Source: a virus
Virus record (IMG/VR): IMGVR_UViG_3300020197_000180
Location: 1-22,649 of that record
Strand: one strand, 5' to 3'
DNA: 22,649 nt
Both the position numbers and the translations under genes were made by a program. Below, piece after piece: positions 1 to 18,170 of this stretch. Numbering within the stretch: the stretch's first letter is position 1; every line of letters begins with the position of its first letter. The notes under the pieces were generated by a model. It was given only the letters and a program-made list of their open reading frames with translations, was not told the origin of the DNA and did not search any database.

Positions 1-1141
1 CGCTTGTAATTCCTACGGTTGTTACAATACCGCTTGCAAGATATAAATTATCGATATATCCGAAAGAAATTCCTGCAGTAGTTACAATACCTGTAGTTAC
101 AAAAAGATCATCTACTCTACCACTAGAGATTCCTGCGGTTGTTACAATACCTGTAGTTACAAAAAGATCATCTACTCTACCACTAGAGATTCCTGCAGTG
201 GTTACGATACCAGAAGTTGCAAAGAAATTATCGACTCTAGCGCTTGTGATTCCTGCAGTGGTTACGATACCAGAAGTTGCAAAGAAATTATCGACTCTAG
301 CGCTTGTAATTCCTACAGTTGTTAGAATACCAGTGTTAATATATACATTGTCTATTGATGCAGTTGAAATTCCTGCAGTAGTTACGATACCAGAAGTTGC
401 AAAGAAATTATCTACTCTAGCGCTTGTGATTCCTGCAGTGGTTACGATACCAGAGTTGATGTAACCATTATTAGCTGATAAAGTTGTGGTATAAAGATTA
501 GTTATAATACCTGAAGCTACATAAGCATTTGTAATGTTAAAACTAGTAGCGATACCACCATTGATATTAGCAGTATCAATGTACTCTGTAGTTGCAAATA
601 GAGTGGTTACAATACCTGTAGTTACAAAAAGATCATCTACTCTACCACTAGAAATTCCTGCAGTAGTTACGATACCTGTAGTTACAAAAAGATCATCTAC
701 TCTACCACTAGAAATTCCTGCAGTAGTTACAATACCAGAAGTTGCAAAGAAATCATCTACTCTAGCACTAGAAATCCCTGCAGTGGTTACGATACCAGAG
801 TTGATGTAACCATTATTAGCTGATAAAGTTGTGGTATAAAGATTAGTTATAATACCTGAAGCTACATAAGCATTTGTAATGTTAAAACTAGTAGCGATAC
901 CACCATTAATATTTGCAGTATCAATATACTCTGTAGTTGCAAATAAGGTTGTAACAATACCAGAAGTTGCAAAGAAATCATCTACTCTAGCACTTGAAAT
1001 TCCTGCAGTGGTTACGATACCAGAAGTTGCGAAGAAGTTGTCTACTCTAGCACTAGAAATCCCTGCAGTGGTTACGATACCAGAAGTTGCAAAGAAATCA
1101 TCTACTCTAGCACTAGAAATCCCTGCAGTGGTTATAATTCC
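1..1141 (-). repeat. Tandem 60-bp coding repeats of the fibre shaft
   Basis: Residues 343-722 of the fibre are built from 20-residue (60-bp) units starting with GIVTT, GIITT or GILTT, with one recurrent 15-residue unit (GIATSFNITNAYVAS). Counting from the N-terminus I find 18 full 20-residue units, two 15-residue units and one unit cut by the window edge. Units differ mainly at a few positions (SSARVDDFFATS, SSGRVDDLFVTT, TSARVDNFFATS). Neighbouring copies are often nearly identical in DNA. The array continues beyond base 1. Confidence 0.93.
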
Positions 1142-2167
1142 TGTGTTTATTCTTGAAGTATTTGCATTTGATTCACTGGTTACGTTTAATCTAGAAACCG
1201 ACTCTTCTTGAACATCTAGGACATCAATGAATGCTTTACCGACAATGGGATCAGTGAAAGTAAAACTTGTTGATATGCTTAAATTTGAAAAATAATAATC
1301 ATTAAGTTGAGTAAATTCAAAATCTCTAGTTCCAGTTACATTATTAGTTTCATTTATTGTTATTTCGCCAACTCCAATACTTTCAATATTGGCGGCCGCA
1401 GTTAATCCACTAGAAGGATCAAATATTATATCATATCCCACTGCCAAATTAGAAGTATCAATTCCAGTAATTATTGTACCAGCTGAAGAAACTGTTCCAG
1501 ATACAGTTAAAACTCCAACAGTACCGGTTGTATTTTGAGATAGAGTTACAAATCCAGTACCTAGAGAAAGGATGGTTGTTCCTGCACCAATCCCAAAACC
1601 ACTAACTCCATATCCGACAGCTAAAACGGATGTATCAATGCCCGCAGGGGATGACAATTCATTTCCATTAGAAGTAACTAGATAAGCAGATGTTGATATT
1701 TGGGCATCTGTGGTAAATTGACTTATAATGATAGAACCGGTTTCAATACCTACCACTGTTGTTCCAACAGAAACATATGTGGAATTAGTAACAGAATATC
1801 CTACGCGAATATCATTCGTAGAAATTCCAATAATTAGAACGTCTGGAGTTGAACTTATAATACCGGTCCTTTCAACAGGTTGGTTGTAAGCTATAGATAA
1901 ACTTCTGGCATTTACATTACCAGCAAATACAGCATCTCCAATTACGTCTAAAGCAACTGCAGTTCCACTAGTTCCAATTCCAATTGAAACTTTATTAATT
2001 AAATTTTGAGTCGAAGCTGCACCAACTAGATAATGACCGCCAGCAGTAGATCCATCATGGACCACTGCGACATCTAGATTAGTATCAATTGTTAACTCTC
2101 CAACTGCCCCCGTAAATACTAAATGTTCTGCTGTGGTTCCTCTTCTAAGCTGTACCTGCTTGGTCAT
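1..2167 (-). CDS. Tail fibre protein with Mtd-like N-terminal domain and 20-residue repeats (3'-partial)
   Basis: Probable receptor-binding or shaft fibre of the virion. The frame opens at ATG 2167-2165 and stays open to base 1, giving 722 residues with no stop in the window. Residues 1-50 (MTKQVQLRRGTTAEH, later VGELTIDT and VHDGSTAGG) match the small domain that starts many phage fibres and is known from the major tropism determinant (Mtd_N type). Residues about 110-285 hold three related beta units with the pattern I-D-T-x-x-L-x-V-G-Y followed by GTT and an xVTLSQ-like strand. From residue 343 the protein is a tandem array of units such as GIVTTAGISSARVDDFFATS. Family knowledge says such N-termini attach fibres to the baseplate; the shaft role of the repeats and trimerisation are inferred. 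A late promoter box lies 36 bases upstream. No clear Shine-Dalgarno sequence is seen. The receptor-binding tip is outside the window. Confidence 0.85.
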   Translation of the reverse strand, partial: MTKQVQLRRGTTAEHLVFTGAVGELTIDTNLDVAVVHDGSTAGGHYLVGAASTQNLINKVSIGIGTSGTAVALDVIGDAVFAGNVNARSLSIAYNQPVERTGIISSTPDVLIIGISTNDIRVGYSVTNSTYVSVGTTVVGIETGSIIISQFTTDAQISTSAYLVTSNGNELSSPAGIDTSVLAVGYGVSGFGIGAGTTILSLGTGFVTLSQNTTGTVGVLTVSGTVSSAGTIITGIDTSNLAVGYDIIFDPSSGLTAAANIESIGVGEITINETNNVTGTRDFEFTQLNDYYFSNLSISTSFTFTDPIVGKAFIDVLDVQEESVSRLNVTSESNANTSRINTGIITTAGISSARVDDFFATSGIVTTAGISSARVDNFFATSGIVTTAGISSARVDDFFATSGIVTTLFATTEYIDTANINGGIATSFNITNAYVASGIITNLYTTTLSANNGYINSGIVTTAGISSARVDDFFATSGIVTTAGISSGRVDDLFVTTGIVTTAGISSGRVDDLFVTTGIVTTLFATTEYIDTANINGGIATSFNITNAYVASGIITNLYTTTLSANNGYINSGIVTTAGITSARVDNFFATSGIVTTAGISTASIDNVYINTGILTTVGITSARVDNFFATSGIVTTAGITSARVDNFFATSGIVTTAGISSGRVDDLFVTTGIVTTAGISSGRVDDLFVTTGIVTTAGISFGYIDNLYLASGIVTTVGITS
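436..960 (-). repeat. Higher-order 345-bp duplication inside the fibre repeat array
   Basis: A composite block containing the distinctive units LFATTEYIDTANING, GIATSFNITNAYVAS and GIITNLYTTTLSANNGYINS occurs twice. The copies start at 436 and 781 on the plus strand and are almost identical for about 175 bases. The offset is 345 bp, exactly 115 codons, so the reading frame is kept. Three ordinary 20-residue units lie between the composite blocks. This indicates a segmental duplication on top of single-unit expansion. Confidence 0.88.
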
Positions 2168-2215: not shown

Positions 2216-5200
2216 TTAAATGATAACAACATAAGTTCTTGGAATCTGGAATGGATTGTTAATAGTTGTTCCCGAAGTTTCCTGAATATAAATTGTTCCA
2301 AGTCCGACATAAGTTGATTTAGTAAACGACTCAAATCCTGAAGAGAATCCAAATAAAGATCCAGATGTATCTTTGTAGATTTTGACAACAAAATTATTTG
2401 AAGATCCAAGAATACTAATTGATCCAGAACTCTTATATGCAGGTATGAATATAATATTTGGATATAGAAGTTCTCCCGATAAAGTTGCAATTCCAGACCC
2501 AATTTGAGTGTAAGTTGAAACTTTTTTGGTTGATGAAGTTCCACTAATATTGAATATTCCAATTCCAACAACAGAGTATTCGGATTCAACTTTGGTTGTT
2601 GCGGAACCATTGATAGAAATAAGTATCGTAGACTCTGGAGTTTGTGCAGAATAAGATTCTGATTTACCAGAAAGAGCAAACAGACTACCAGATCCATTAT
2701 AAGTATCTACCTCTTTTTCACCAGAAGATGTGGCAATAAAGATAGTTCCAAATCCAATTTCCGAACTTACAAATTTAACACTCTGATAAGATCCAAAAAT
2801 TGACTCTACTCCAACACCAATATAAGAATAAGTTGCAATTTCTCTTGTAGAAGCAACTCCACTTAATGTGAATAGTATTGTATCCTCAACAGGGTTCGCA
2901 ACAAATGTTATATTCGCTGCATTTTGATAATCACATGTAAATTCTTCACTATCACAGGAATCATAAAGAACATCCGAAGTATGTTGAGTAAACTTAAATA
3001 GTACAGTATTAGAAATACTTGGAGTGTAAGCACTTACTGCAGCAACACCAAATACATCTACAGGTATTACTCCAGTTCCAACTTCAGATATAGTAATACT
3101 TTCATCAGAAGCTGCGCCATTAATACTTAATGTTGGTTGATCTGTTGGAGGTATGCTTGATAAAGACTCATTTGCAGAAGAGGTAAATTGATATAAAACA
3201 GTATTCTCTGGAGTCTGTGCAGATATTGACTCTAATGTTTCTGAAATTCCAGATATTACAAATAAAGTTCCTTTACCGTTTATCAGAATTTTTCTAATTA
3301 TCTTGTCAGCACCGGCACTAAGAGTTATGGAACCGGATCCACGATAAGCATCTACCTCTTTTTCTAATGTTGCAGTTGTTTGTTGCGAAATAGTTGCATT
3401 TCCAGATCCAGAATATGTAAATGTTCTTACCGGTCTGGTTAATGCATTACCAGGAATAGTTACAATACCAGAAGTAATATAAGTGGATCTTGTGAAACTC
3501 CAAGATTTACCAACTCCAGGGCCGCCAGGATAAGCTATCGTATCCTCTGGACTAAATCCAGTAATTACATTGAATAATCCAGTTCCAGAATATGGAGTTA
3601 ATGGACTATACTTGGCAATATTATTAGTTTGATCAAACTTGAATGTTCCTATTCCAGTTCCAGGAACCTTATCATTAATTGGATATCTATTTGAATATGT
3701 CTTAGCATCACGAAGATTTCCTTCACTATCCGGCGCAGTTCCTACGCCAATACCAAACTTAATGCCTGTTGTGCCAATACCAATATTTTTTTCAATACCA
3801 TAGTGTGGAGTGTAATCAATATTTGGATGTAATAGTTCTCCAGAAATACTAAAGAGTTGAGTATTCTCTGGAGTCTGAGCTGAATAAGCTTCTAGAGCTA
3901 CTCCAGAAATACTAAAGAGTTGAGTATTCTCTGGAGTCTGAGCTGAATAAGCTTCTAGAGCTGTTCCAGAGAATGTTAGAGTACCTAAGCCAACATAGGA
4001 ATCTACATCTTTTTCTACAGCTACTCCAGAGAATGTTAGAGTACCTAAGCCAACATAAGATTCTGTATTCTTCTCTACAGCTACTCCAGAGAAAGTATAA
4101 AGAACAAAGTCTTCTGGAGTCTGAGCTGAATAAGCCTCTAGAGCTGTTCCAGAAATAGTAAAGAGTTGAGTATTCTCTGGAATCTGAGCTGAATAAGCTT
4201 CTAGAGCTACTCCAGAAATACTAAAGAGTTGAGTATTCTCTGGAGTCTGAGCTGAATAAGCTTCTAGAGCTGTTCCGGAGAGTGTTAGATTACCTAAGCC
4301 AACATAGGAATCTACATCTTTTTCTATAGCTATTCCAGAGAATGTTAGAGTACCTAAGCCAACATAGGAATCTACATCTTTTTCTATAGCTACTCCAGAG
4401 AATGTTAGAGTACCTAAGCCAACATAAGATTCTGTATTCTTCTCTACAGCTACTCCAGAGAAAGTATAAAGAACAAAGTCTTCTGGAGTCTGAGCTGAAT
4501 AAGCCTCTAGAGCAGTTCCAGAGAACGTATAAAGAACTAAATCTTCTGGAGTCTGAGCTGAATAAGCCTCTAGAGCAGTTCCAGAGATTTGAATTCCTGT
4601 GGTTCCAATACCAATATTCTTTTCAATACCATAATGTGGAGTGTAATCAATATTTGGATGTAATAGTTCTCCAGAAATTTTAATTCCGGTAGTTCCAATA
4701 CCAATATTCTTTTCAATACCATAATGTGGAGTGTAATCTACAAATGGGTGTATGATAGAAGTATTGGTAATTGTAAATAATCCAGAAGGAAAGTAATTAT
4801 AGGCGGCTGTTTCTCGACAAGAAGCAATTCCAGAAATAGAATATAAAGCAGTATCACCGATATATCCCTTTCTAGTAAAACTCCAGGATTTACCTACACT
4901 AGGACCTCCAGGATAAGCTTCTGTATCCTGTGGGCTAAATCCATTTACAACATTAATCGGTCCAAATGGATATACAAGTTCACCGACAATAGATGGAACT
5001 ACAGCACTTACTTCACCAAAATCAAGTGTTAGTCCAGTTGGCGATAGATATACATCACCATAATCAGCGGGTTGTTCAGTTGGATTGTGAATTATTAATC
5101 CATAATCCAAAGCACCTTCAATGATAGAACTTTCATTATAATCATAAGTGACCCTTTCAACTAACTGACCAAATTCAAATAGTGTACCAATACCAACATA

Positions 5201-6634
5201 AGATTCTGTATTCTTTTCTACAGCTACTCCAGAGAAAGTATAAAGAACAAAGTCTTCTGGAGTCTGAGCTGAATAAGCCTCTAGAGCTGTTCCAGAGAAA
5301 GTATAAAGAACAAAGTCTTCTGGAGTCTGAGCTGAATAAGCTTCTAGAGCTACTCCAGAAATACTAAAGAGTTGAGTATTCTCTGGAGTCTGAGCTGAAT
5401 AAGCCTCTAGAGCTGTTCCAGAGAATGTTAGAGTACCTAAGCCAACATAGGAATCTACATCTTTTTCTACAGCTACTCCAGAAATACTAAAGAGTTGAGT
5501 ATTCTCTGGAGTCTGAGCTGAATAAGCCTCTAGAGCTGTTCCAGAAATAGTAAAGAGTTGAGTATTCTCTGGAGTCTGAGCTGAATAAGCTTCTAGAGCT
5601 GTTCCAGAGAATGTTAGAGTGCCTAAACCTATATAAGATTCAGTTTCAGACTCTAATGCAGAAGTTGATAAAACTATAGATCCAGAAACAACTTCTGAAT
5701 AAGAAGCTCTTACTATCGCAATACCATCAATATAAAGCCTATAGTTTGCAGAACATATTGCTGATCCACTTAGAGACATTCCTCCAAATGGATATGGTAT
5801 TACTGGATCAACAATAAAAGCATAATCGCCAATTTGTGGAATTGGTGTTCCTGATACTTGACCATAATCAAGGGGAATACCAGATAAAACATCTACAATA
5901 CTACCATAATCAACAATACTTTCAGTTATTGAAGATTCATTATAGTCATAAGTAATACTTTCTTCAGCAGTATCTAAACTGAAAAGAGTGCCAGATCCCG
6001 TATAATTACCTGTTATAAATCGTTCTTCCGCGCTTCCAAATATCTGTATATTTCCTGAACCAACATAAGATTCTGTATCATTCTCTATAGCTACTCCAGA
6101 AATACTGAAGAGTTGAGTATTCTCTGGAATTTGAGCAATGAACTGTAAGCCTGTATAGTTACCAGTAATTGTGTAGAGAGTAGTATCTCCTACAGGACTT
6201 ATCGTAGTGGACTCTAGGGCCGTCTCGGCGACGGCTGTATCTAGTCGGAGAGTACCAGAAGACAGATATGCATTTACGGTCCTTTCTAGACCATTTCCTA
6301 TCTCAAATACAGTACCATTTCCTACCCAAGTAAATACAACATTTTCAGTTAGAGTTTCACTTGTAAATTCAAATAGTATACCAGAAGAAATATATTGATA
6401 ACTTGCAGATTCTTGTAGAGTACTTAATGTACCTATATTACCGTAAGGAACTAATGACTCGCTAACAGAGATATTATACCAGTCATCTTCTAAGAAATTA
6501 AAAGTTGGACTTCCATCACTTACAGCTCCAATATCCTCCGAAGATGTTGATGCAGACGAAATTAATCCATAATCTTCGGTAGAATATGGATTATTTACTT
6601 CTGGATTATCTAGATTATAGACATAAACTGCCAT
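2216..6634 (-). CDS. Giant repeat-mosaic tail or adhesin protein (1472 aa)
   Basis: Putative fibre-like or adhesin virion protein; no enzyme motif is seen. Residues 1-330 start with MAVYVYNLDNPEV and carry degenerate repeats, including several DYG-x-I motifs (EDYGLI, VDYGSI). Residues about 338-486 and 683-931 are arrays of two interleaved unit types. One is 21 residues (GTALEAYSAQTPENTQLFSIS, or EDFVLYTFS endings); the other is 20 residues (GVAVEKNTESYVGLGTLTFS). I count 12 clear EAYSAQ units. Three copies of a DYTPHYGIEKNIGIGTTGI segment and two of an AYPGGPxVGKSWSFTR segment are interspersed. Residues 960-1472 are divergent relatives of the same units, ending IPRTYVVII. Similar Gly/Ser-rich repeats occur in large marine myophage tail proteins as far as I recall; the adhesin role is inferred from this and from the adjacent fibre gene. 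The ATG is preceded by no strong Shine-Dalgarno sequence, and a terminator-like hairpin lies just upstream. Confidence 0.82.
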   Translation of the reverse strand: MAVYVYNLDNPEVNNPYSTEDYGLISSASTSSEDIGAVSDGSPTFNFLEDDWYNISVSESLVPYGNIGTLSTLQESASYQYISSGILFEFTSETLTENVVFTWVGNGTVFEIGNGLERTVNAYLSSGTLRLDTAVAETALESTTISPVGDTTLYTITGNYTGLQFIAQIPENTQLFSISGVAIENDTESYVGSGNIQIFGSAEERFITGNYTGSGTLFSLDTAEESITYDYNESSITESIVDYGSIVDVLSGIPLDYGQVSGTPIPQIGDYAFIVDPVIPYPFGGMSLSGSAICSANYRLYIDGIAIVRASYSEVVSGSIVLSTSALESETESYIGLGTLTFSGTALEAYSAQTPENTQLFTISGTALEAYSAQTPENTQLFSISGVAVEKDVDSYVGLGTLTFSGTALEAYSAQTPENTQLFSISGVALEAYSAQTPEDFVLYTFSGTALEAYSAQTPEDFVLYTFSGVAVEKNTESYVGIGTLFEFGQLVERVTYDYNESSIIEGALDYGLIIHNPTEQPADYGDVYLSPTGLTLDFGEVSAVVPSIVGELVYPFGPINVVNGFSPQDTEAYPGGPSVGKSWSFTRKGYIGDTALYSISGIASCRETAAYNYFPSGLFTITNTSIIHPFVDYTPHYGIEKNIGIGTTGIKISGELLHPNIDYTPHYGIEKNIGIGTTGIQISGTALEAYSAQTPEDLVLYTFSGTALEAYSAQTPEDFVLYTFSGVAVEKNTESYVGLGTLTFSGVAIEKDVDSYVGLGTLTFSGIAIEKDVDSYVGLGNLTLSGTALEAYSAQTPENTQLFSISGVALEAYSAQIPENTQLFTISGTALEAYSAQTPEDFVLYTFSGVAVEKNTESYVGLGTLTFSGVAVEKDVDSYVGLGTLTFSGTALEAYSAQTPENTQLFSISGVALEAYSAQTPENTQLFSISGELLHPNIDYTPHYGIEKNIGIGTTGIKFGIGVGTAPDSEGNLRDAKTYSNRYPINDKVPGTGIGTFKFDQTNNIAKYSPLTPYSGTGLFNVITGFSPEDTIAYPGGPGVGKSWSFTRSTYITSGIVTIPGNALTRPVRTFTYSGSGNATISQQTTATLEKEVDAYRGSGSITLSAGADKIIRKILINGKGTLFVISGISETLESISAQTPENTVLYQFTSSANESLSSIPPTDQPTLSINGAASDESITISEVGTGVIPVDVFGVAAVSAYTPSISNTVLFKFTQHTSDVLYDSCDSEEFTCDYQNAANITFVANPVEDTILFTLSGVASTREIATYSYIGVGVESIFGSYQSVKFVSSEIGFGTIFIATSSGEKEVDTYNGSGSLFALSGKSESYSAQTPESTILISINGSATTKVESEYSVVGIGIFNISGTSSTKKVSTYTQIGSGIATLSGELLYPNIIFIPAYKSSGSISILGSSNNFVVKIYKDTSGSLFGFSSGFESFTKSTYVGLGTIYIQETSGTTINNPFQIPRTYVVII
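3757..4760 (-). repeat. Three long direct repeats (HYGIEKNIGIGTTGI) bracketing an array
   Basis: Near-identical segments encoding DYTPHYGIEKNIGIGTTGI lie at about 3757-3842, 4585-4677 and 4678-4760. The landmark gtgtaatcaa starts at 3810 and 4641, an offset of 831 bp (277 codons). The third copy is displaced a further 90 bp (30 codons). The outer copies flank the main repeat array, so the spacing would keep frame after recombination. Confidence 0.88.
3838..4585 (-). repeat. Main 63/60-bp coding repeat array of the 1472-aa protein
   Basis: Tandem units encoding EAYSAQTPE (63 bp) and SYVGLGTLTFS (60 bp) types. Neighbouring copies can be identical at DNA level: the segment beginning cagaaatact recurs at 3841 and 3904, an offset of exactly 63 bp. 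Differences are often silent, for example gcttctagagc against gcctctagagc. The order of unit types is mosaic rather than regular. Confidence 0.92.
5175..5620 (-). repeat. Second copy of the 63/60-bp repeat array
   Basis: Encodes residues about 338-486 of the same protein with the same two unit types: five EAYSAQ units, one EKDVDSYVGLGTLTFS unit and one EKNTESYVGIGTLFEFG unit. Stretches match the array at 3838-4585 almost base for base, so the two arrays appear to have exchanged sequence or expanded recently from a common source. Confidence 0.9.
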
Positions 6635-6657
6635 GCAAGTCGTCCAACAACTTTTTT

Positions 6658-6695
6658 AAAAAAGAAGGAGGATCGCCATAAAAAAGCAACCCTCC
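6658..6695 (-). terminator. Rho-independent terminator, minus strand
   Basis: On the minus strand GGAGGGTTGC (6695-6686) can pair with GCGATCCTCC (6676-6667) through ten pairs, two of them G-T, around a 9-base loop. The stem is followed at once by TTCTTTTTT (6666-6658). It lies 36 bases after the stop of the 335-aa gene. On the plus strand no T-run follows the hairpin directly, so the signal is directional. It probably ends the baseplate transcript, although read-through into the next gene is likely needed. Confidence 0.75.
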
Positions 6696-6731
6696 CACCA
6701 ATAACTTATTATATTTTTTTATTAAAATAAA

Positions 6732-7739
6732 TCAGTCAAGAGCAACATTCAATGTGATCTTGATTTGGTCACCGTTATTTTGAATGGTGTATGGACCATT
6801 TGTAAATCTTTCTGCATACATTACAGAACTATAAAGAGTTGCGGTACTTAAACCAGCACTTGAATTTGGTGTTGCTGTCAAAGCGGGAGTAGTGTGAAAC
6901 TCGTTTGCATTAGGAACAGAGAATACTGTATAAACATTAGATGTTAATGTAGTATTACCAGTTCCGGCAGCAATGTAAAGTACATCTCCAGCAACTAGTT
7001 GGTGATTGGTTACTGCAATTTTACCAAAACTGAAGGTAACACTTGAATCAGTAGCAACTTGAATATTATCGATAAGAACTTTATCTAAATAAATTACTTT
7101 TAATGCTCTGTCAATACCTATAACTGTAGTTCCTGTTTGAATTCCTGCGTTTCCACCAACAACCATTCCCAAAGTTAAATCGTCTACGCTTTGATCTGGA
7201 TCAATTGTGATATAAGAGTTACCAATAACACCAATTACTGGATCAGTATTGTCACCCTTGGTAACTGTAGTACCGATACCAACCGAGGCATAGTGAACAA
7301 CGCCTTGTACAGCAACAGGCATGTTGTTTGCACGAGTTACATAGTAACCATAAACATCACCAGCATCTCCAGTGAATGTAAAAGTTTGTTCTGGATATGT
7401 TGCAGTTGTACCAGAACCTACTTGATTAATTCTCCAACGAGAACCATTGAGAAGAATACCAGTCTGAGATGTATATGTCTGATCTCCTCTATTGTTTACA
7501 CAATATGGATACCCTGTGGTAGGAGCAAATCCATAAGCATTGGTATTTCCAATTCCATATGGTTCATAATATCTGGAATCAGAAGGGACATCCGACTCAG
7601 CTGGAGTGGTGTTACTTGTAAAAAGTTTTAAAACTAAGTTTCTGGGAGACTGGTCAGCAAGACTTGCAGTGTGGTTGTTGTTTGCAACCAAGTATCTGAG
7701 TGACTCAAGTTCTCCAATATTTGGAACTAATAGTGCCAT
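6732..7739 (-). CDS. Virion structural or tail protein with inserted module (335 aa)
   Basis: The start MALLVPNIGELESLRYLVANN, an NLVLKLFTSNTTPAESD segment and the end GPYTIQNNGDQIKITLNVALD recall a small conserved structural protein family of T4-like cyanophages whose function is unknown to me. Residues 1-148 (containing WRINQVGSG and QTFTFTGDAGDVYGYYVTRA) and 305-335 look like two halves of one domain. Between them, residues about 149-304 form an apparent insert with a GTTVIGI unit and a later NHQLVAGDVLYIAAG hairpin followed by YTVFSVPNANEF. The ATG at 7739 has a good Shine-Dalgarno sequence (AGGGGAG) at 8-base spacing and a TATAAATA late promoter box 43 bases upstream. It precedes a terminator, so it is probably the last gene of the upstream late transcript and can also be transcribed alone. 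Confidence 0.8.
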   Translation of the reverse strand: MALLVPNIGELESLRYLVANNNHTASLADQSPRNLVLKLFTSNTTPAESDVPSDSRYYEPYGIGNTNAYGFAPTTGYPYCVNNRGDQTYTSQTGILLNGSRWRINQVGSGTTATYPEQTFTFTGDAGDVYGYYVTRANNMPVAVQGVVHYASVGIGTTVTKGDNTDPVIGVIGNSYITIDPDQSVDDLTLGMVVGGNAGIQTGTTVIGIDRALKVIYLDKVLIDNIQVATDSSVTFSFGKIAVTNHQLVAGDVLYIAAGTGNTTLTSNVYTVFSVPNANEFHTTPALTATPNSSAGLSTATLYSSVMYAERFTNGPYTIQNNGDQIKITLNVALD

Positions 7740-7782: not shown

Positions 7783-7790
7783 TATTTATA
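7783..7790 (-). promoter_or_regulatory. T4-type late promoter box TATAAATA
   Basis: An exact TATAAATA on the minus strand, the consensus recognised in T4 by the gp55 late sigma factor with gp33 and the sliding clamp. It overlaps the TAA stop of the 225-aa gene (7788-7786) and lies 43 bases before the next ATG, leaving room for a leader with the AGGGGAG ribosome binding site. Confidence 0.72.
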
Positions 7791-8463
7791 ATTTTAATTT
7801 TAAAGAGATTAGAAATCTGGTAATATTATTTACAGCAATAACGTCAAAAGTGAGAATATCTCCAGCTGTTATTGTTTTTGTCCATCCGGTTAAATCATCA
7901 TCACGAACTTTTCTTGCATTGGACATTTGTGGATATACCCCACCAACAATTGAGGTAAAAGTGGGAAATGTTGAATAACTTGACTTTTTAATGTCCAGTG
8001 TTAAATTGCCTTGTTGGTCTGATAATATCACTAAAGATTCTAAAACCCCTGTTACATCAACAGTTAATGATCCTTTATTTCCTGTTATCATTGCAATAGA
8101 TCCACTATCAATTATATAATTAATCGTTCTAGTTAAATCTGCAGTTGCGGCTAAAGCGACAATAGTGCAATCTTGACCATTTGTTGGTGCAGTTGTAAAT
8201 ATTATATTATTTGTGGATAAAGTATAATCTTTCCCTGGTTGTAAAATAGATCCATCAAGCATTACCAAAAGTTGTTGGTCATTAATAGGAACATAAGAAG
8301 TCGCATTTTCAGTAAGAACAAATGTTGAAATTGATCCGTTAAATTGTGAACTTATGTCATCTAAGATAATGTTACCATATTGAATTGATTTAGTAGGAAT
8401 TTCATAATCAACACCAATTCTATATGCACCTGGTTCATTTAATGTTACTAAGTAATCTGTCAT
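7786..8463 (-). CDS. Two-domain tail or fibre-associated structural protein (225 aa)
   Basis: Residues about 28-108 carry a beta module with LDDISSQFNGSISTFVL, LLVMLDGSILQPGKDY and IIFTTAPTNGQDCTIVAL, a pattern I recognise from phage fibre and baseplate proteins. Residues about 165-225 (VRDDDLTGWTKTITAGDIL then VIAVNNITRFLISLKLKL) match a C-terminal domain common at the ends of marine and other phage tail proteins, thought to be a beta-sandwich that may bind glycans. The link (residues 108-165) includes alternating strands such as GSLTVDVTG and GNLTLDI. The start overlaps the preceding stop as TAATG and has GGAG at 7-base spacing, so translation is probably coupled to the 110-aa gene. The two-domain plan suggests a decoration or host-contact role on the baseplate; this is inferred. 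Confidence 0.8.
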   Translation of the reverse strand: MTDYLVTLNEPGAYRIGVDYEIPTKSIQYGNIILDDISSQFNGSISTFVLTENATSYVPINDQQLLVMLDGSILQPGKDYTLSTNNIIFTTAPTNGQDCTIVALAATADLTRTINYIIDSGSIAMITGNKGSLTVDVTGVLESLVILSDQQGNLTLDIKKSSYSTFPTFTSIVGGVYPQMSNARKVRDDDLTGWTKTITAGDILTFDVIAVNNITRFLISLKLKL

Positions 8464-8795
8464 TAGGAGACTCCTGGAGTTACTAAAACATTTCCTTGAA
8501 CAGCTCGGGTTCTATAAGAATTTGGAGATATCAAGATAACATCATAAACATAACGACCACCTTCAATGGAATCGGTTGCAGTAAACCCCATGGAGACAAC
8601 GATTTTTCCATTAATTCTATCTGGAAAACTTAAAGTTAGTGGATATGAAGTTGAAGATGTTGGATGTTTCCTGATAGAAGAAATACCAGTATATCCTGTT
8701 AAGTTTAATGGTGCGTTGTTGGTATTCCTGATTGTAAAGGTGGCTTGAAAGTCAACCCCTTGTTCAAGAACTAAGTTTACATTCCTTGCCGCCAT
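8463..8795 (-). CDS. Small Ig-like structural protein (110 aa)
   Basis: A single beta-sandwich domain is suggested by the pattern VNLVLEQGVDFQATFTI, NAPLNLTGYTGISSIRK, GKIVVSMGF and GGRYVYDVILI, ending AVQGNVLVTPGVS. Proteins with an N-terminal strand, a D/N-L-T-G-Y turn and a GxYxYDV strand are frequent in phage tail and baseplate clusters and resemble the Ig-like domain of baseplate upper proteins. The exact role is unknown. There is no signal peptide and no membrane segment. The gene starts 23 bases after the 81-aa gene, with a CATAAATA late promoter box across the upstream stop codon. Its stop overlaps the next start by one base (TAATG). An upstream ATG at 8807 is in another frame and was not used. 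Confidence 0.78.
   Translation of the reverse strand: MAARNVNLVLEQGVDFQATFTIRNTNNAPLNLTGYTGISSIRKHPTSSTSYPLTLSFPDRINGKIVVSMGFTATDSIEGGRYVYDVILISPNSYRTRAVQGNVLVTPGVS
8471..8474 (-). promoter_or_regulatory. Ribosome binding site of the 225-aa gene
   Basis: Minus-strand GGAG lies 7 bases before the ATG at 8463, inside the last codons of the 110-aa gene. Together with the one-base stop-start overlap it supports coupled translation. Confidence 0.6.
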
Positions 8796-9065: not shown

Positions 9066-12000
9066 TTATATTGATGCTATTGCTCTCAAATCTCTTATTA
9101 AAGGAACAAAAGAAGAATTAGTTCCAGACATCAGAATTTTTATTTGGAATCCTTTAAATTGCGGTAAGAATGAAGCTGTAAACTCATAGGATCTGAAATC
9201 TTCTTCTGAAGAAGCGGACAATACTTTTTTGTCTGGTAATCCATTATTATCTTTTGCATTTTTAACTTGTCCATTATCATCCAAATTATTATACCCAGGG
9301 AAAAGTTCCCAAAGTGGTGCTGAATTTGAATCACCTCTAAACAATCTATAACAAACTCTGATGTCACTACTTGAATGTCTAAGTGCATCAAAATACACCT
9401 TTAAATTATCTGCTGCCTTTTCAAGACGAACAATTTTACTTAAGTAAGTAGCAGCAGTTGGATCATCAGTTAGAGAATTAACTCTGCCATCAGTTGCGTA
9501 ATTTTTAACTTTTGAATTGATTCTATTTGCAATAGTAATTACATTCGTTCTATCCAAATCTATCATTGGAGACACTTTAGTATCTTGACTAGTTAATTCT
9601 AATTCTATTGTAAAAGACTTATTTCCAGGAAAATCTTGTAAATATGTATTTTCATTGATTTGTGATGCTACCAATCTTGGACTGGAGAGTTCATTAGTTT
9701 TTACTAAAGAAATATCTTCAAACCCCTGATCGACAAAAGAAATTAAGTTACTGTCGGGAGTTGACGCAGAGAATGTTCGTGCTTTCGCCGTAATGTTAGT
9801 TTTCTCAGGTAACATTATTTGGAAATTAGTTAAAAATGAATTAAAAGGTATATTTTGTGTTGCTTTTGGTCCTTTTGGAGATCCCATTAAAGGAACAATA
9901 TCATAAGATCCGCAAGATTTATCTGCCTTGAAGAATAATTCTGGGAACCCGTTTGCGTTTCCTGTTGTTCTATCTGTTCCTCCAGTATTCATACCAACCT
10001 TAATATAATAGAAATCCAAATCATTTGGATAAATTGTTTGATTTGCAGCTGATAAATTATGAGTTTTATTGATCCTTCTCAAAGAAACTCCATTAAGCTC
10101 ATACTTGTAAACAGAAATACCGCTAGAGTAAGATCCACCAATTGTTCCGTCTACTTTTCTAGATATACCAGTTAGAGAATTAGTAGAAGTTACAACTCCA
10201 GTATATTTAATAACTTCAGTATCAATCAAAATATATCCAGGGTTCAAAGAAGATACCGGAATATTTTCAAAACTAGTAAAGATTCCAACAGAATTGACTA
10301 TAATTGAATCAGTTGAAGATGCAGTATATGAGGAATTCAATGTTTGCGGTTTCAGATCTGATTCTAATCCAGAAAGAACAACCCTATCATTCGTAGCATA
10401 CATTCCATGGTTATAATGACTTACTTTAAAATGAAGTCCATCTGAGATAGTTTTGATATACGTAACATTGGCATTTGATAAAGAGACTGTTCCAGCAGTG
10501 CCAACATAGAATAAGATATCAGTTGAGTTTTGTTGTGGAGTTCCTTGAACTCTGTCAATAAGTAAAGAATTGAATGCAGAGATTACCCCAATATTATTTG
10601 GTATAGAAAGAATCAGGTTGTTGCCCAAATTATCAGTTTGGCTATAATCAACTTCTAAAGCATCTCCATAAACATATCCAGTGCCACCAACAGATACGGT
10701 AGCTGCAATTGCAACTCCACCTTGTACACTCAGATTGACTTTTGCGCCGACACCGCTGCCAGTTAACGCTATTACGTTCACATTTGAATAAGTTTTAAAT
10801 CCAGTCGTAAATGCAGATCCAGGAGAAGTTACTGATAACGTGCTGCCAATACCAATTGATCCGACGACACTTTTCAAATTACCCCTGAAGTTTCCGTTAT
10901 TGTTTTGAAGTATTGTAACTCCACTAGTAAGATCAGTAACTTCAGAAGTAGTTAAACTCTTTCCAAGTCCAACTATTAATGATCTGGAAATACAATCAAG
11001 TGGATTTGGCTTTAATGTAACTATCTGTCTGTTACCAACATCTAAATCTGGATTATAGAATCTAACAGTAGAAGATCCCTTATAAAAATCTGCTCTATAT
11101 ATTGTTAATTTAAGGTCTTCAAGTTGACTTGGATCCCATGTGGCACCATTTTGAGATTTAAACAAAGATCCTAATAAAGGTTGTTGTGATACAATAATTT
11201 TTTCAGACTCTACTTTATTTACAGTAGTTACATCTTCTTCACCCATTCTAGAAATAAAGACGTTATATTCGTCAGACGCCGAAAGAAGAACTACTGCATA
11301 TGACTTACCAGTTTCACAATAAACTGGTGAAGGAAAAGTAAATGTAGTAGCAACAGATCCCGAATCTGAGGTTTTAACATCAACTGGATCTAAGATTATT
11401 TCGCCAAAAGGCAAAATTTCTGTAGTGGGCAAACCAGTTTGCATAGTTCTGATTTGTGCTGTAATTGGTAATCCTTTAGTATCTTTTGTCTTAAAGAAGA
11501 CATCAACTTTGGTTATAAAAATTCCAGTTTCGTCAGGAACTTCAAAAGATTGTGCAAGTGGATCCACCCAACGCTGTTGTGTAATACTTCTATTCTTAAA
11601 TGAAGTACTAGCAACAGTTTCCGTTTTTTCAGAAGTTAAAGTTCTTTCATCAGTTTTAGCAATTTGTTCAACTTTTGCATTTCTAATTCTTAAAGTTGTT
11701 TCTTCTGTATTATTAAGGGTTCCGGAAGAAACAAAATTAGTTGATGCAGTGCTGTCTGTAGCTCCAGATATTGTAGTGTTAATAGAACTAGTTGTAAGTG
11801 TAAATGTTTTTGTTCCGGTTTCAAAAGAAGGTGATGAAGGTAATGTTGCGTTAGGAATAAACAATGATCCTATTAATGTTCCGGCAGAATCAGTTACTAA
11901 TCTGACTTTTGTTACCTTTGCAATCGCACCACTTGTCTCACCTTTTAATTGCATATCGCTAATAATAAAACCATAATATCCAGCCGAGGATTGCAGTTCT

Positions 12001-15000
12001 AAAGATGCAGTGTCTAAATTCAATATTGTTGACGTGCTAGAATATGAAGAAGGTATTGATTCAGTAGGTATATAAGGATTTTCAGTATATACCTGGGTAG
12101 GACTGTTGTAGGGTCCATATTTATGATTTGGTTTTGCCAATCTAGCTCTTACAGCAGTAGTTCCAGAAGTTCCTTGTATTGCTTCTCCAACAGCAAATGT
12201 ACCACTAACCATCTGCACTTCAACTAATTTTGGTGTTGCGTATTTATTCATATCAACATTATCAAAAAATGCATACATCTGAGTTTTTGGTTTCAGTCTT
12301 TTTGCAATAAACTCAACATTCCTTGATCTCATAGTATGAATAACTTCAGTAGACACTACCTTAGTTCCCAAATTCACATAATCAAATTGTTCGCTTACTT
12401 TATATTGAATTCCCTGCCTAGATTGTTTAGTAGTTGTTAAAGTAGTTACATTAGCAAAATCAGTATATTGATCTTGATAATCAATCTTTGTCCATTCTGG
12501 AATACCTCTACCTTTTTGATATCCGCCTCTCCAACTAGTTCTACCAGTTTCTTTAGTTCCAATATAAATGGAACCCATATTTTTTCTACCTGTTTCTACG
12601 GTTCCAGTCCAAGTAGTTTCCCAAGCTCCCCACGTAATAGGTGATAATCCAGTGTTTGTATCAACCCCTAATTGTTGAATAGTTGTATTATAGGTTCCTT
12701 CCTGGTCAACTGTTTTTTTGGTTCCCTTTGTTTCAATCCAAGTATCAGTAGCAGGATTTAATTCAATTGCACCAATCCAATTAACAACATTAAAAGGATT
12801 TACGTTTACAATTCTAGTTGCAAACTTATTTTGCAACCATTGTTTATCTGTATATTTTAAACAGACTACATCTCCAACTTTTACTGTATTTGGATTTCCC
12901 AAGTCTTTAACAAATCTCAAATCTGCATCTGGGTTAGATGTATTTGCTGCGCCAACTACAGCTTCAGATCCAAGTAAAAGGTCAATCGAAGTTGTGTAGT
13001 GTTGTGGTCTCAAATGTCCTTCTAGGGTATCAATACTGCATTTATGATTTGGATTTCCTAAAGAACCTGCAAAATCTGATTTAAAATTATCAACAAAGAA
13101 TCCGGTCTTAAATCTATCTAATCCGGTTTGACCATCCTTTAAAGTTAAATTTTTAGTGTCACTCTCTAATAAAGATAACGAAGTGTAGTATTCTACATTT
13201 TTCAGCCTATCCTCAAGTCTTGCAATGTCTTGCATTCTATAACGTTTATGCGTAGATAATTGAACTTTTACATCGTTAGAATTGTAAACATATGGAGGCA
13301 TTAAAATTGTAGCCACTTCTAATGCTGTTTCAATATCTTTAGGATTTTGTGGCTTTAATGATGGCACACCACTACTTACAAAAAATTCTCCAAATTTATT
13401 TAAATATAGTTTATCGATTCTTCCCAGATAATAATCATAAGAAACTATGATATTTTTATCCTTTGCTATATTAAATTGGCTTGAGTTTGTTGATGCTGAG
13501 TATGTTCTTGCCGCATATTCAAATGGAGAATAAATATTGGTTGCTTGATCATATGGTGAAACTCTGGGCCTTACATCAATAATATCATTTGCTCTGTAGG
13601 TATCAATATAAGGCAAATCATTAGAAAATCTTTCTTTATCATACGAAGTTACTGTTACAAAATCACCAGTATCTGCTGGATCAATTACGTAGTTATGATA
13701 TATAATTTTTAATTTTTTAGTTGGGGCTATGATTCCCTCTTTTCTAGTGATATATGCATAATTTGCAATTTCACGTTCTTGTCCATAATCAATAATAAAG
13801 TCATTGATTATATTTCTATCTCCCTCAATAAATTTGACAACATTAGCGGTTAAATTTGATTCAACAAAAATAATTTTTTCATCTGCAACAAAAGAATTTT
13901 CATTGACATAAACGATTTCGATGGTATTTGATCCATTATTTTCAACTAATACAGCCATAGCTTGACTAGATTCACCATATATCATTTCTCCTCGTTTAGA
14001 ATTGAGAATATTACCATTCAAATTAGATAATTCTAATTTTGGAAGGTCCGCTTGATTTGAATCTGAAGATTCAAATATACCCATAACAAAACTAACATCT
14101 GCAACTTGTAATGAAATATTTTTATCTTGGACTCTAGTTCCATAAATTGAACTATAAGTTAATCCATCGGCCAAAGTTGTACTTGTTATTCCGGATGATG
14201 AATTTGCTGATCTAGTAATATTTAAAACTGTTGATCTATTATAGAATTTTTTTCTTGATTTTAAACCTGTTTTTTTCAAAGTTGCAGTTAATGTTGCTGG
14301 CCCATTTGCAGTTAATTGAACTAGGTTTATAGTTCTTCCAGCACTAATTGAAAATTTAGAACTAGTTAATGGTTCATTAGTTCCATTAGAATAAACTAAA
14401 GTATAGTCTTCCTCATCAAATGGAACTAATGTAACATCTGTTCCAGATTCTAAAGTAGCAGTAAGTGCATTTGAAGATACCGTTACGTCATAAGATTTTC
14501 TAAATATAATTTCACCACTTGTTAAATCAACCGACGCAATATCCGTATTTTCGTATTCAGTAAATAAAAATGATTCTTTAGTATTAGTTAATACTGGGAT
14601 AACCTTAAATACATCTGTAGAAGTTATAGAAGAAATTGATAGAGTTCCATCACAAACTCCACTAACTGAAGTTGTGGGTTTAACAATTATTCTTTTGCCA
14701 GCAGTATTAACTTCAGAAACTATATTGTATGTTGGAACTGTTTGACCGGATTTAGTATAAGAGATAATATCTCCGGTTTTGATACCTATTCCAAAAATAG
14801 AAGTAGAAGCTGAAATCGTACTAATTCCAGATGAGGCAGTAGAAATACTAAAAGTTGTTCCCTGCGGGGATAAAAGTAATGGTTGACTTAATAACAAATC
14901 TCCAGTAAAAGAAGTTCCATCAAGACTTACAACTTGTCTAACATCTGATAATGAATAATCTCGTATATTAGTTACAGTTCTTGAAATTTCTACTTCATTA

Positions 15001-16568
15001 ACCAATAATGATTCATCTTGTAAAAAAGTTCCAGATACTTGATATAAAATAAGTTGATCGGTATTTGTTGCTACTTTAGCTAAATATCCAGAAGCAGAAC
15101 TATTTTTACCTTCAATGAACGCAGGAAGATTTAGAGTAATTGTAGAATTGATAGTTAAATAGGTATAAGTTTGGACATCATATACCGATCCTTCAAAAAT
15201 AGTCGTAGCATTTGAGTATTGTGTATTTTTTAACTTCAAATCATAAACCCTTGCAATTCCAACTTCAATTCCAGACGCAGTTCCGGGTGTAGATGTTCGT
15301 TGAGAATATAGTTTAACTTGACTAGTCGCTCCAAATCCAACTTTTACTCCACCAAAAACATTATTAATCTCAAGTTGATTCCCTAAACTAAAAGGTAAAG
15401 TGATATTTTTAACTGATGCTGTGGTTCTTGGTTTTGCTAAATCAAAATTAATAGTATTTAAAGTTTCTACTTCATAGCCTCTGACATATGCTTTTCCTGG
15501 AGATATTTGAAGGGTTAATAAGTCATCTGACGGAGTGTTTCCTTGTTTAGTTAGTTGATTATATTGGAAAACTCCATTATTACCTATTTTATTATTTAAA
15601 GATTCTTTAGCTATAACCGAATATGGTTTTACATAATAATCACCGGATTCATCATATGTTCTTCTAGCTAATTCATCCGTTATAAGATTTGGATCTTCTT
15701 TTTTTGTAAATTTTTTTAAGATGCCGTTTTCAACTCGCATCAATTCAACAAAATTTTCATCATTAAAATCATCTAAAGATTTTTTACCCAATGTTGCTGT
15801 AATTTTTAATCTATCCGCTCCTGGGGCTGCAAAATTTGAAAATCCCCTAGCATTGTCATAAAGATCTGGATTTGATTGAGACGCTACAGAAAGTTCTTCT
15901 AAAATATTTAAACCAATTCGATACGAAGGTAAATTTGAATATTGATCAAGAATTACTGTTTGTGCATAAACATCAATAAAAAAACCTCTAATAAAATAAA
16001 CACCTTGATCAATTTTTGCAGCCGAACCAGTTTCTACCGATCCTGTTACTATTGATGTTGCAAATGATGAGTTTTCAAGTATAACTGCCGTCGTATAGTC
16101 AATATTTTCTAAAGAAATTAAATTTTCTCCATCAACAAATGTGTTTGATGAAAAATTAGTATCACTTGAACTTTGATATTTTATATAAAGAGTATAATTA
16201 TCATTTTCAGATTGAGTATTTGTAATATAACTTTCTACTTTCGCAATTACCCCACTAGTTTCTCCTTTTATTAATTTTCCAACTAACTTGTCGATATAAA
16301 AAGAAACTGAAATTCCTAAGTGAGTTGGATCTATTTGGACACAAGAATATTCGGGATCATACGCAATACTCCCAGGTATGACTACAGACCCTTCTTTAAA
16401 AAAATGTTTGCCAAATTTTTCAATTTGATTTTGCAGTATTGATTGTGACGTTGTTAATTCTCTGGCCTGTATTGGAGTTCCGGGTTTGAATAATACTCTT
16501 TGATAACCCTTAGTTACATCAAAATCATCAAAGTATGGCGATGCATTTAAATTAGTATTTTGTGCCAT
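9066..16568 (-). CDS. DUF4815-type giant baseplate/tail structural protein (2500 aa)
   Basis: The N-terminus (NLNASPYFDDFDVTKGYQRV, then FKPGTPIQARELTTSQSILQ) is the signature of the DUF4815 family found in marine T4-like phages; residues about 1-400 belong to it. A short helical segment follows at about 1105-1140 (RYRMQDIARLEDRLKNVEYY). Around 1665-1780 a beta-sandwich-like region begins RWVDPLAQSFEVPDETGIFI. About 1913-1976 is a GxGY module (VGGTGYVYGD). The last 250 residues (MIDLDRTNVITIANRINSK; LPQFKGFQIKIL; PLIRDLRAIASI) match the C-terminal domain I recall from cyanophage structural proteins. Short GETSGxxAxV motifs recur near residues 101 and 1543, with variants near 489, 864 and 1467. 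The gene directly follows gp8, where T4 has genes 9 and 10, so it may fill their place as a connector between baseplate rim and fibres; that is inference. GGAG lies about 12 bases before the ATG, at the end of gp8. Confidence 0.88.
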   Translation of the reverse strand: MAQNTNLNASPYFDDFDVTKGYQRVLFKPGTPIQARELTTSQSILQNQIEKFGKHFFKEGSVVIPGSIAYDPEYSCVQIDPTHLGISVSFYIDKLVGKLIKGETSGVIAKVESYITNTQSENDNYTLYIKYQSSSDTNFSSNTFVDGENLISLENIDYTTAVILENSSFATSIVTGSVETGSAAKIDQGVYFIRGFFIDVYAQTVILDQYSNLPSYRIGLNILEELSVASQSNPDLYDNARGFSNFAAPGADRLKITATLGKKSLDDFNDENFVELMRVENGILKKFTKKEDPNLITDELARRTYDESGDYYVKPYSVIAKESLNNKIGNNGVFQYNQLTKQGNTPSDDLLTLQISPGKAYVRGYEVETLNTINFDLAKPRTTASVKNITLPFSLGNQLEINNVFGGVKVGFGATSQVKLYSQRTSTPGTASGIEVGIARVYDLKLKNTQYSNATTIFEGSVYDVQTYTYLTINSTITLNLPAFIEGKNSSASGYLAKVATNTDQLILYQVSGTFLQDESLLVNEVEISRTVTNIRDYSLSDVRQVVSLDGTSFTGDLLLSQPLLLSPQGTTFSISTASSGISTISASTSIFGIGIKTGDIISYTKSGQTVPTYNIVSEVNTAGKRIIVKPTTSVSGVCDGTLSISSITSTDVFKVIPVLTNTKESFLFTEYENTDIASVDLTSGEIIFRKSYDVTVSSNALTATLESGTDVTLVPFDEEDYTLVYSNGTNEPLTSSKFSISAGRTINLVQLTANGPATLTATLKKTGLKSRKKFYNRSTVLNITRSANSSSGITSTTLADGLTYSSIYGTRVQDKNISLQVADVSFVMGIFESSDSNQADLPKLELSNLNGNILNSKRGEMIYGESSQAMAVLVENNGSNTIEIVYVNENSFVADEKIIFVESNLTANVVKFIEGDRNIINDFIIDYGQEREIANYAYITRKEGIIAPTKKLKIIYHNYVIDPADTGDFVTVTSYDKERFSNDLPYIDTYRANDIIDVRPRVSPYDQATNIYSPFEYAARTYSASTNSSQFNIAKDKNIIVSYDYYLGRIDKLYLNKFGEFFVSSGVPSLKPQNPKDIETALEVATILMPPYVYNSNDVKVQLSTHKRYRMQDIARLEDRLKNVEYYTSLSLLESDTKNLTLKDGQTGLDRFKTGFFVDNFKSDFAGSLGNPNHKCSIDTLEGHLRPQHYTTSIDLLLGSEAVVGAANTSNPDADLRFVKDLGNPNTVKVGDVVCLKYTDKQWLQNKFATRIVNVNPFNVVNWIGAIELNPATDTWIETKGTKKTVDQEGTYNTTIQQLGVDTNTGLSPITWGAWETTWTGTVETGRKNMGSIYIGTKETGRTSWRGGYQKGRGIPEWTKIDYQDQYTDFANVTTLTTTKQSRQGIQYKVSEQFDYVNLGTKVVSTEVIHTMRSRNVEFIAKRLKPKTQMYAFFDNVDMNKYATPKLVEVQMVSGTFAVGEAIQGTSGTTAVRARLAKPNHKYGPYNSPTQVYTENPYIPTESIPSSYSSTSTILNLDTASLELQSSAGYYGFIISDMQLKGETSGAIAKVTKVRLVTDSAGTLIGSLFIPNATLPSSPSFETGTKTFTLTTSSINTTISGATDSTASTNFVSSGTLNNTEETTLRIRNAKVEQIAKTDERTLTSEKTETVASTSFKNRSITQQRWVDPLAQSFEVPDETGIFITKVDVFFKTKDTKGLPITAQIRTMQTGLPTTEILPFGEIILDPVDVKTSDSGSVATTFTFPSPVYCETGKSYAVVLLSASDEYNVFISRMGEEDVTTVNKVESEKIIVSQQPLLGSLFKSQNGATWDPSQLEDLKLTIYRADFYKGSSTVRFYNPDLDVGNRQIVTLKPNPLDCISRSLIVGLGKSLTTSEVTDLTSGVTILQNNNGNFRGNLKSVVGSIGIGSTLSVTSPGSAFTTGFKTYSNVNVIALTGSGVGAKVNLSVQGGVAIAATVSVGGTGYVYGDALEVDYSQTDNLGNNLILSIPNNIGVISAFNSLLIDRVQGTPQQNSTDILFYVGTAGTVSLSNANVTYIKTISDGLHFKVSHYNHGMYATNDRVVLSGLESDLKPQTLNSSYTASSTDSIIVNSVGIFTSFENIPVSSLNPGYILIDTEVIKYTGVVTSTNSLTGISRKVDGTIGGSYSSGISVYKYELNGVSLRRINKTHNLSAANQTIYPNDLDFYYIKVGMNTGGTDRTTGNANGFPELFFKADKSCGSYDIVPLMGSPKGPKATQNIPFNSFLTNFQIMLPEKTNITAKARTFSASTPDSNLISFVDQGFEDISLVKTNELSSPRLVASQINENTYLQDFPGNKSFTIELELTSQDTKVSPMIDLDRTNVITIANRINSKVKNYATDGRVNSLTDDPTAATYLSKIVRLEKAADNLKVYFDALRHSSSDIRVCYRLFRGDSNSAPLWELFPGYNNLDDNGQVKNAKDNNGLPDKKVLSASSEEDFRSYEFTASFLPQFKGFQIKILMSGTNSSFVPLIRDLRAIASI

Positions 16569-16574
16569 GTTAAG

Positions 16575-18170
16575 TTAAAACTCCAGTATGACTTTAATAT
16601 CTTCTTTTTGGCTAGAAGATCTGGGAATTGGCTGCCTATTATCTATGTAGATAATTTCACCAGACTTTTTATTATATTCTGCAGAGGATATACCTGAAAC
16701 AAAATCAAGACCTAACTGATATATTCTATTATTTATTGTGGTCGTTATACCGTTAAAATTGGTATTGATTGATAAAGCTGGTCCAATAATTGAAGATCCG
16801 TTTATTGTAACTCCATAACCAATGTCTGGATTTGATGTGAAAGGAATTATTCTAAATGCAGTTTCACTTGAAGCTAGTCCCGTTGATTGATAGTATTTAA
16901 GAACCCCTGTTATTGGATCCCATGATGCAACAAATCCTATTGCAGTTGACCCAAATCCAACTGTTTGAGTAATTTTTGAATCTATTGCATAAGTTGTGTT
17001 AGTAGTAATTCCAGATAATTTTAAAGCCTGCAATCCACTTACTAGAGAAGTATTTAATACTTGGACATTACTGCCAACAACGGTTGGATTTTTTATCACT
17101 CCTACTCTAGCGAAATCGTTTCCAAGAATAATATCCGGATTACTGTCTAATGTTTCAAATCTAGAATATAACAAAACACGATATGCACCCAGTTCTCTGT
17201 ATATATCATATCCATGTCCACCTTTCGGGGGGATAATTACTTGAAAAGTTGCTACAGAAGTTGTACCAATTCCAGTATTACTTAACTGACCTAATGGGCC
17301 ATTAATATTTGATTCTGGAGCTCCTGGATAAAATTGAATGGTGCCATATGTATAGTCTTTCCCACCTTCAGTGACGAATACCTCAGATATTTTTCCAAAA
17401 GAATCGATTGTAATTGTAGCTTTACCTCCAGAACCATCACCCAATATTGGAACATTCGAAAAAGAAGTTGAGATTGGTTGATAATTTGAACCCCTGTTTG
17501 TGACAAGAATTACTTCTATTTTTCCATCAATAGAATTATTTTTTGTTGCAACACTTTCTCCAACTACTCCCCAATCTTCAGGAACTGGAATATACTCAAT
17601 AGAATCAAATTTAACAATTTCCGAAGGTTTAATGGTGTAAAGATATTTCCAAATATATCCGTCTCCACTAGCGCCCGCAGATCTGGGCTCCAAATCAATA
17701 AAAGTTGGTTGATCATATGATGGTCTGCCCTTAGGATTTTCAGGATCCGTGCCATTTTGGAGACAAATATAAACTCTTAAGTCATCATTAATTGCGTAAT
17801 AATTTGATTCATATAGAGAAGTTGAATTTGAAACTGGTGAAGGGTTGTAAACATTATAATCATGCCTATACATTTCATAGGTATTGCCGGCAACCCAAGG
17901 TGTTTTTCTAATTAATCTCCTAACATCTTGATTTGTTATTTGTTTCATTGCAATAATACTTTCTTTTATCTGGTTTTCCTCTTGAAAACCATCCAAAGGA
18001 GATGGTGTATTAGCAATCCAATTTGGTGTTCCACCAGTAGCCGGATTTAATGCGTTAGGAAGGCCAATAAAAGTATAATATTTACTATCAGTATTCCCAG
18101 CGCCAGAAACACTCTTTGCAAAAGTTTCTGCATTTAGAATTCTAAATTGATCTGATATAATTGCGGGCAT
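16575..18170 (-). CDS. 8: Baseplate wedge subunit gp8
   Basis: Homologue of T4 gp8, a dimeric wedge protein of the contractile tail baseplate. Landmarks in T4 order are visible. ASGDGYIWKYLYTIKP with EYIPVP (about 165-195) corresponds to T4 GDGYVWEYLFEIPP and EYIVVP. DFARVGVIKNP (about 350-360) corresponds to FRQISIITNP. SGEIIYIDNRQPIPR near the C-terminus corresponds to SGEMIYMENRPPI, with both proteins ending in an acidic EDIKVILEF-type strand. T4 values are from memory. At 531 residues it is much longer than T4 gp8 (334). The excess is mainly a GxGY module at about 217-285 and a beta-rich insert at about 370-470. The N-terminus MPAIISDQFRILNAETFAKS is as in cyanophage gp8. The start at 18170 is A-rich upstream without a clear Shine-Dalgarno sequence. 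The next gene follows after 6 bases. Confidence 0.93.
   Translation of the reverse strand: MPAIISDQFRILNAETFAKSVSGAGNTDSKYYTFIGLPNALNPATGGTPNWIANTPSPLDGFQEENQIKESIIAMKQITNQDVRRLIRKTPWVAGNTYEMYRHDYNVYNPSPVSNSTSLYESNYYAINDDLRVYICLQNGTDPENPKGRPSYDQPTFIDLEPRSAGASGDGYIWKYLYTIKPSEIVKFDSIEYIPVPEDWGVVGESVATKNNSIDGKIEVILVTNRGSNYQPISTSFSNVPILGDGSGGKATITIDSFGKISEVFVTEGGKDYTYGTIQFYPGAPESNINGPLGQLSNTGIGTTSVATFQVIIPPKGGHGYDIYRELGAYRVLLYSRFETLDSNPDIILGNDFARVGVIKNPTVVGSNVQVLNTSLVSGLQALKLSGITTNTTYAIDSKITQTVGFGSTAIGFVASWDPITGVLKYYQSTGLASSETAFRIIPFTSNPDIGYGVTINGSSIIGPALSINTNFNGITTTINNRIYQLGLDFVSGISSAEYNKKSGEIIYIDNRQPIPRSSSQKEDIKVILEF

Follow-up and report, generated by a model that had tools for sequence, protein, structure and literature searches.

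Does the long repeat gene of this virus encode a variable part of its host-contact apparatus, and how do its repeats change? A sequence-only reading had proposed two repeat arrays forming a mosaic adhesin-like protein, as a candidate for an undescribed variable host-contact system. The gene (2216..6634, minus strand) encodes a protein of 1472 amino acids, P0001, built of repeats; it lies in the window, by which we mean the whole analysed stretch of 22,649 nucleotides. This 22.6-kb virus contig is a fragment of a Lake Tanganyika-type T4-like cyanophage. The samples of near-identical contigs appear among 24 Lake Tanganyika metagenomes (PMC8245535). Two Photo_RC (psbA/psbD-type) genes on a related contig of 248.8 kb identify the group as cyanophages; on this contig, G001, which is that of locus L025, the photosystem reaction-centre genes lie at 74650-75519 and 77740-78612.

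The repeat gene and its neighbourhood

Tandem Repeats Finder (TRF) located 60/63-bp arrays at 3838-4587 and 5193-5611, both inside the minus-strand ORF; the larger array also has a higher-order period of 309 bp (94% match). Parsing of P0001 into units yielded 18 full units and a degenerate 19th that closes the block at 5174-5608. Block 1 (5174..5608, minus strand; aa 343-487) contains six full units and the degenerate one, seven in all, in the order n,n,B,n,d,d,t, where n and d are 21-aa classes and B and t are 20-aa classes. Block 2 (3845..4585, minus strand; aa 684-930) contains 12 units arranged as a super-repeat of 5-6 units in about two copies. The 21-aa unit reads SG(T/V)ALEAYSAQ(T/I)PE followed by NTQLFxI or D(F/L)VLYTF, and the 20-aa unit reads SG(V/I)A(V/I)EK followed by DVDSY or NTESY and then VGLGxLTx (mostly VGLGTLTF). 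The longest exact internal repeat of the gene is 126 bp long, compared with a mean of 12.8 bp and a maximum of 16 bp in 200 codon shuffles, so the repeats are far beyond chance. TRF, the unit parse and this exact repeat together confirm two blocks of mixed 63- and 60-bp units in one gene. That the copies were identical or differed only silently was overstated: of the 38 unit pairs within a class only 4 are identical, and codons changing the amino acid are as common as silent ones. The arrays had also been called near-identical, which does not apply to the whole blocks, since they have the same unit types but differ in unit order and number.

A degenerate 20-21-aa repeat with the ground plan SGxAxE...YxGxGxxxx runs along the whole chain, so that P0001 consists of repeats throughout and the two blocks are the stretches homogenised recently. 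A 30-aa segment, SGELLHPNIDYTPHYGIEKNIGIGTTGI, flanks block 2 as a direct repeat: one copy directly precedes the block (4586..4675, minus strand; aa 654-683; DNA match 90% over part) and the second directly follows it (3755..3844, minus strand; aa 931-960). The entire block might be gained or lost at these copies. A further internal copy pair outside the arrays, the PGGPxVGKSWSFTR segment at window positions 3488-3571 and 4871-4954 (80% DNA identity), suggests that the gene underwent a large internal duplication at an earlier time.

Gene order as well as domain and PHROG matches place P0001 within a tail-fibre/baseplate cluster. The order on the minus strand is a gp8-like baseplate wedge protein (16575..18170; Pfam Phage-Gp8, 1.3e-9; PHROG 438), a 2500-aa DUF4815 tail/baseplate-region protein (9066..16568; domain and PHROG profile matches), an 81-aa virion protein, a 110-aa protein (8463..8795; PHROG 3304, 'L-shaped tail fiber protein assembly'), a 225-aa virion structural protein (7786..8463; PHROG 10330; the S-SSM7 homologue is annotated as structural protein), a conserved 335-aa protein (6732..7739; PHROG 10467), P0001 and an Mtd_N-domain tail fibre (2..2167), the gene for which is cut by the window end. 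The 335-aa gene is the syntenic anchor of the locus in at least 80 contigs and in cultured Synechococcus phages. At window positions 69-1134 the Mtd_N gene has 60-bp repeat arrays of its own, of the SGIVTTAGISSARVDDFFAT type; their higher-order period is 345 bp (92%). The frame of this gene is open for at least 2649 aa in contig L097.

P0001 matches PHROG 11522 (unknown function) in five stretches with E=1.5e-56, and tblastn comparisons with S-SCSM2R, S-CAM3 and S-CAM1 gave E values from 6e-47 to 2e-13. The relatives range in length from 737 to 2636 aa. The proteins of S-CAM1 (C290910_099, 2130 aa), S-CAM3, S-SSM7 and S-SCSM2R (there annotated 'TolB') resemble P0001 in their place in the gene order, show significant sequence similarity to it and have the 20-aa repeat ground plan in common with it. 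The gene order is the same in S-SSM7, S-SCSM2R and Sf-FS3, and S-CAM1 and S-CAM3 have the repeat protein in the equivalent place; the P0001 gene directly follows the 225-aa structural and 335-aa type genes, the intermediate gene being longer in S-CAM1 and S-CAM3. Marine members of the family have old, diverged repeats, whereas in the window phage and in some of the lake relatives the homogenisation of the arrays is recent.

Concerted evolution and array replacement between identical flanks

Unit number and order had been expected to vary between phages, and a comparison of the locus in related phages had been named beforehand as the check. We carried it out on assembled contigs of the window-phage population, on relatives and on isolate genomes. 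The expectation holds for four lineages with conserved flanks; in most other near-identical genomes the array is fixed. All window-phage contigs with 99.94-100% identity have the same array wherever it is covered, four of them covering the whole gene. The array is likewise fixed in the L030 lineage, the length of the repeat protein is constant among six S-CAM1 genomes, among three S-CAM3 genomes and in S-SSM7/S-SSM6a, and most other near-identical pairs have arrays of the same length. Mismatch clusters between otherwise near-identical isolates were seen in S-CAM1 (L145, gene positions 2780-3023) and S-CAM3 (L151, 1862-2009), and these look like short gene-conversion or recombination tracts within the repeat protein.

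An array that is fixed everywhere can nevertheless be rejected, because four lineages vary between near-identical flanks: in one an array of 1.2-1.7 kb has been swapped, the second has gained or lost 260 aa, the third has lost 18 aa, and in the fourth block 1 is changed. The array differs between relatives that have 0 mismatches across 2-10 kb upstream. In a second Tanganyika lineage (L061/L156 versus L062/L060) the array is replaced, resulting in two forms of 1607 and 1773 aa, the first of which was assembled in two samples. The flanks of these two forms have 0 mismatches over approximately 2-2.7 kb upstream (at least 1994 bp), a 2047-bp prefix of the gene is identical, and 6 mismatches are found in the 1858 bp past the array. 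L083 and L159 differ by 780 bp in frame (260 aa), while 10 kb upstream and 1.7 kb downstream are identical. A unit-like loss of 54 bp (18 aa) separates L048 from L051, which otherwise have 0 mismatches in 3245 bp. The sibling of the window phage, L023/L102, is approximately 99-100% identical to it per 250 bp upstream; in its block 1 one unit was lost, one was gained and the classes are different. Block 2 is identical in this sibling and in all four full contigs. With most near-identical genomes carrying the same array and four lineages varying, turnover is real but occasional.

Units of the 20-aa class have a nucleotide distance of 0.235 within a gene and of 0.376 between lineages (permutation mean 0.359, sd 0.011), and for 66 of 103 units, compared with 12 expected, the nearest unit comes from the same gene. 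Units are thus closer within a gene than between lineages, which is concerted evolution by lineage-specific homogenisation. For L061/L062 and L023, shuffling of internal units was rejected as the only origin of new arrays: most 31-mers of their variable segments are absent elsewhere in the gene, and the local dS is high. Between the window phage and L023 the diverged tract extends over ~4650..6900 (minus strand; dS comparison). Inside the changed part of the gene dS is 0.10-0.53, against 0.034 in the neighbouring gene and 0 in block 2, and dN/dS is approximately 0.3, showing that P0001 is under purifying selection. The ratio of 0.74 for L061/L062 was given no weight, because that array alignment is not strictly orthologous. 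Judged from these comparisons, the dS peaks and the dN/dS of approximately 0.3 indicate that divergent co-circulating alleles are probably imported by recombination and that units are gained and lost, rather than that hypermutation takes place. The recent expansion and gene conversion suggested earlier agree with the homogenisation of the units. New arrays seem to stem mainly from the import of divergent alleles and not from internal gene conversion alone.

Possible roles of the array

Our best explanation, which we consider probable, is that P0001 is an elongated, repeat-built virion protein from the tail-fibre/baseplate appendage cluster of large T4-like cyanophages, with homogenised blocks turning over by recombination. 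Each unit of 20-21 residues would probably form a pair of short beta strands, and serial stacking of the units would give a rod. In the homogenised blocks, unequal recombination could change the number of units without breaking the frame. When the phage recombines with co-infecting relatives, a divergent allele could take the place of whole array stretches and of the N-terminal part, while the conserved C-terminal part and the neighbouring genes are left unchanged. Under selection driven by the host, this would likely alter the length of the appendage or its contact surface. Gene neighbourhood and variation pattern make P0001 most likely an elongated tail/baseplate appendage, perhaps touching the host; we infer its location in the virion, its rod shape and the selective cause of the variation.

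AlphaFold models of aa 640-1472 and aa 1-560 (33- and 29-row alignments) showed two short paired strands per unit at a mean pLDDT of 33.2 and 37.7, respectively. At such low confidence fold, valency and host contact are things that we infer. Searches of Pfam and NCBIfam found no fibre or adhesin domain in P0001; the matches to Mycophage_Gp42, Ribosomal_L35Ae and phosphoglycolate phosphatase were far under the cut-offs and were judged spurious. The PDB profile search gave no match for the N-terminal half and one uncharacterised chain (4iyk, E=0.012) for the C-terminal half, and no PDB sequence relative of substance was found. Neither domain matches nor PDB relatives nor a confident fold thus directly support the terms adhesin, reach or valency.

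The main rival to the appendage reading is a plain spacer. P0001 would then be a structural rod or spacer of the tail or baseplate that makes no receptor contact, its unit number would drift through the ready recombination of repeats and a loose constraint on length, and host specificity would reside in the neighbouring fibres. The low-complexity beta repeats, the array fixed in most isolates and the dN/dS of approximately 0.3 in most comparisons, with no clear diversifying signal, are consistent with this, and the adjoining Mtd_N fibre is the better candidate for receptor binding. Yet divergent alleles locally replace arrays in otherwise identical genomes, a pattern that is commonly reported for host-recognition genes of marine phages (PMC3909814), and we regard the spacer as possible but rather doubtful. 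We also consider it unlikely that the array is a swappable cassette, in which lake cyanophages of a single genotype would carry alternative repeat segments between fixed ends, these would be exchanged by recombination among co-infecting phages and a shared allele pool would set host contact, as likened to the cassette systems of bacterial surface proteins.

The variation might also be largely an artefact, short reads having collapsed or cross-joined the arrays of co-occurring strains. The Tanganyika arrays rest on 2x150 bp HiSeq reads with inserts of ~240 bp, assembled with metaSPAdes (PMC8245535), the L083/L159 event sits on a 195-bp exact direct repeat at which assembler collapse is possible, and several contigs end within or at the array. 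Among contigs of the window-phage population, L103 and L104 end at window position 4525, L101 at 3642 and L102 at 3829, so that they break off close to where block 2 starts or shortly past its end; assemblers can be expected to stop in this way at repeats or at mixtures of array forms. The longest exact repeat in the window array, however, is shorter than the reads, and the four full contigs, all from one lake and one method, agree. Furthermore, the assemblies L061 and L156 from different samples have one structure (11 mismatches), the loss in L048/L051 occurred without an exact repeat of more than 11 bp, and the L061 and L062 haplotypes hold unique sequence beyond rearranged units. The L083/L159 difference could therefore be an assembly collapse, but the other three variable cases are not easily explained in this way, and a largely artefactual origin is very unlikely. 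A dedicated diversification machine acting on the array, either a diversity-generating retroelement (DGR) or a phase-variation recombinase, is suggested by the adjoining Mtd_N fibre, which recalls the tropism protein of a DGR phage, and by the restriction of change to the array and its surroundings, but it is highly improbable: relatives differ at the scale of whole units and alleles, and the DGR was rejected because no reverse transcriptase was found on the 248.8-kb relative and five other contigs and because mismatches, mostly transitions, fall on all bases and are not adenine-specific.

Known systems and meaning for cyanophages

Duplications of adhesin domains in T4 tail fibres expand host range (Tetart et al. 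1996, as cited in PMC6957217). The likeness to P0001 is that the number of units changes in a gene of the fibre region, through which host range can shift, a function that is putative for P0001; homology of P0001 to gp37 was not detected, and the host-range phenotype is that of T4. In metaviromic islands of marine-phage tail-fibre genes (PMC3909814), host-recognition-type genes likewise vary between near-identical co-occurring phages, including a fibre repeat region. These islands mostly comprise C-terminal regions or whole genes, whereas in P0001 a defined internal repeat segment is swapped and both sides are kept. The BACON arrays in tail proteins of crAss-like phages (PMC6949934) are also tail-associated tandem arrays that have grown by unit duplication and horizontal transfer. 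BACON is, however, an Ig-like domain, and the P0001 unit of 20-21 aa has no detected relation to it (no BACON match in the Pfam scan at E<=0.1). Moreover, the array order is conserved in crAssphage but differs between close relatives in P0001. In an evolution experiment with the cyanophage S-TIM4 (PMC6224464), fibre and baseplate proteins made up most of those mutated particle proteins whose role is known.

The literature searched on tandem repeats in cyanophage fibres contained no directly matching report. The description of the system as undescribed is true for the protein family, but the principle has already been described in other phages. What is new is the repeat ground plan of the family, its lineage-specific homogenisation and the natural pairs of genomes whose differences are almost confined to the array. 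Loss, gain and swapping of the array with unchanged surroundings point to a fast-changing part of the virion surface, of a kind known in other phages. If the array were a mere spacer, P0001 would be an ordinary repeat-containing structural protein. The analysis names a family of long, unannotated repeat proteins that in many T4-like cyanophages of fresh water and the sea occupies one fixed place in the tail cluster. How cyanophage host range is determined is still poorly understood, and the natural phage pairs differing almost only in the array are ready-made tests of array length and unit order against host range.
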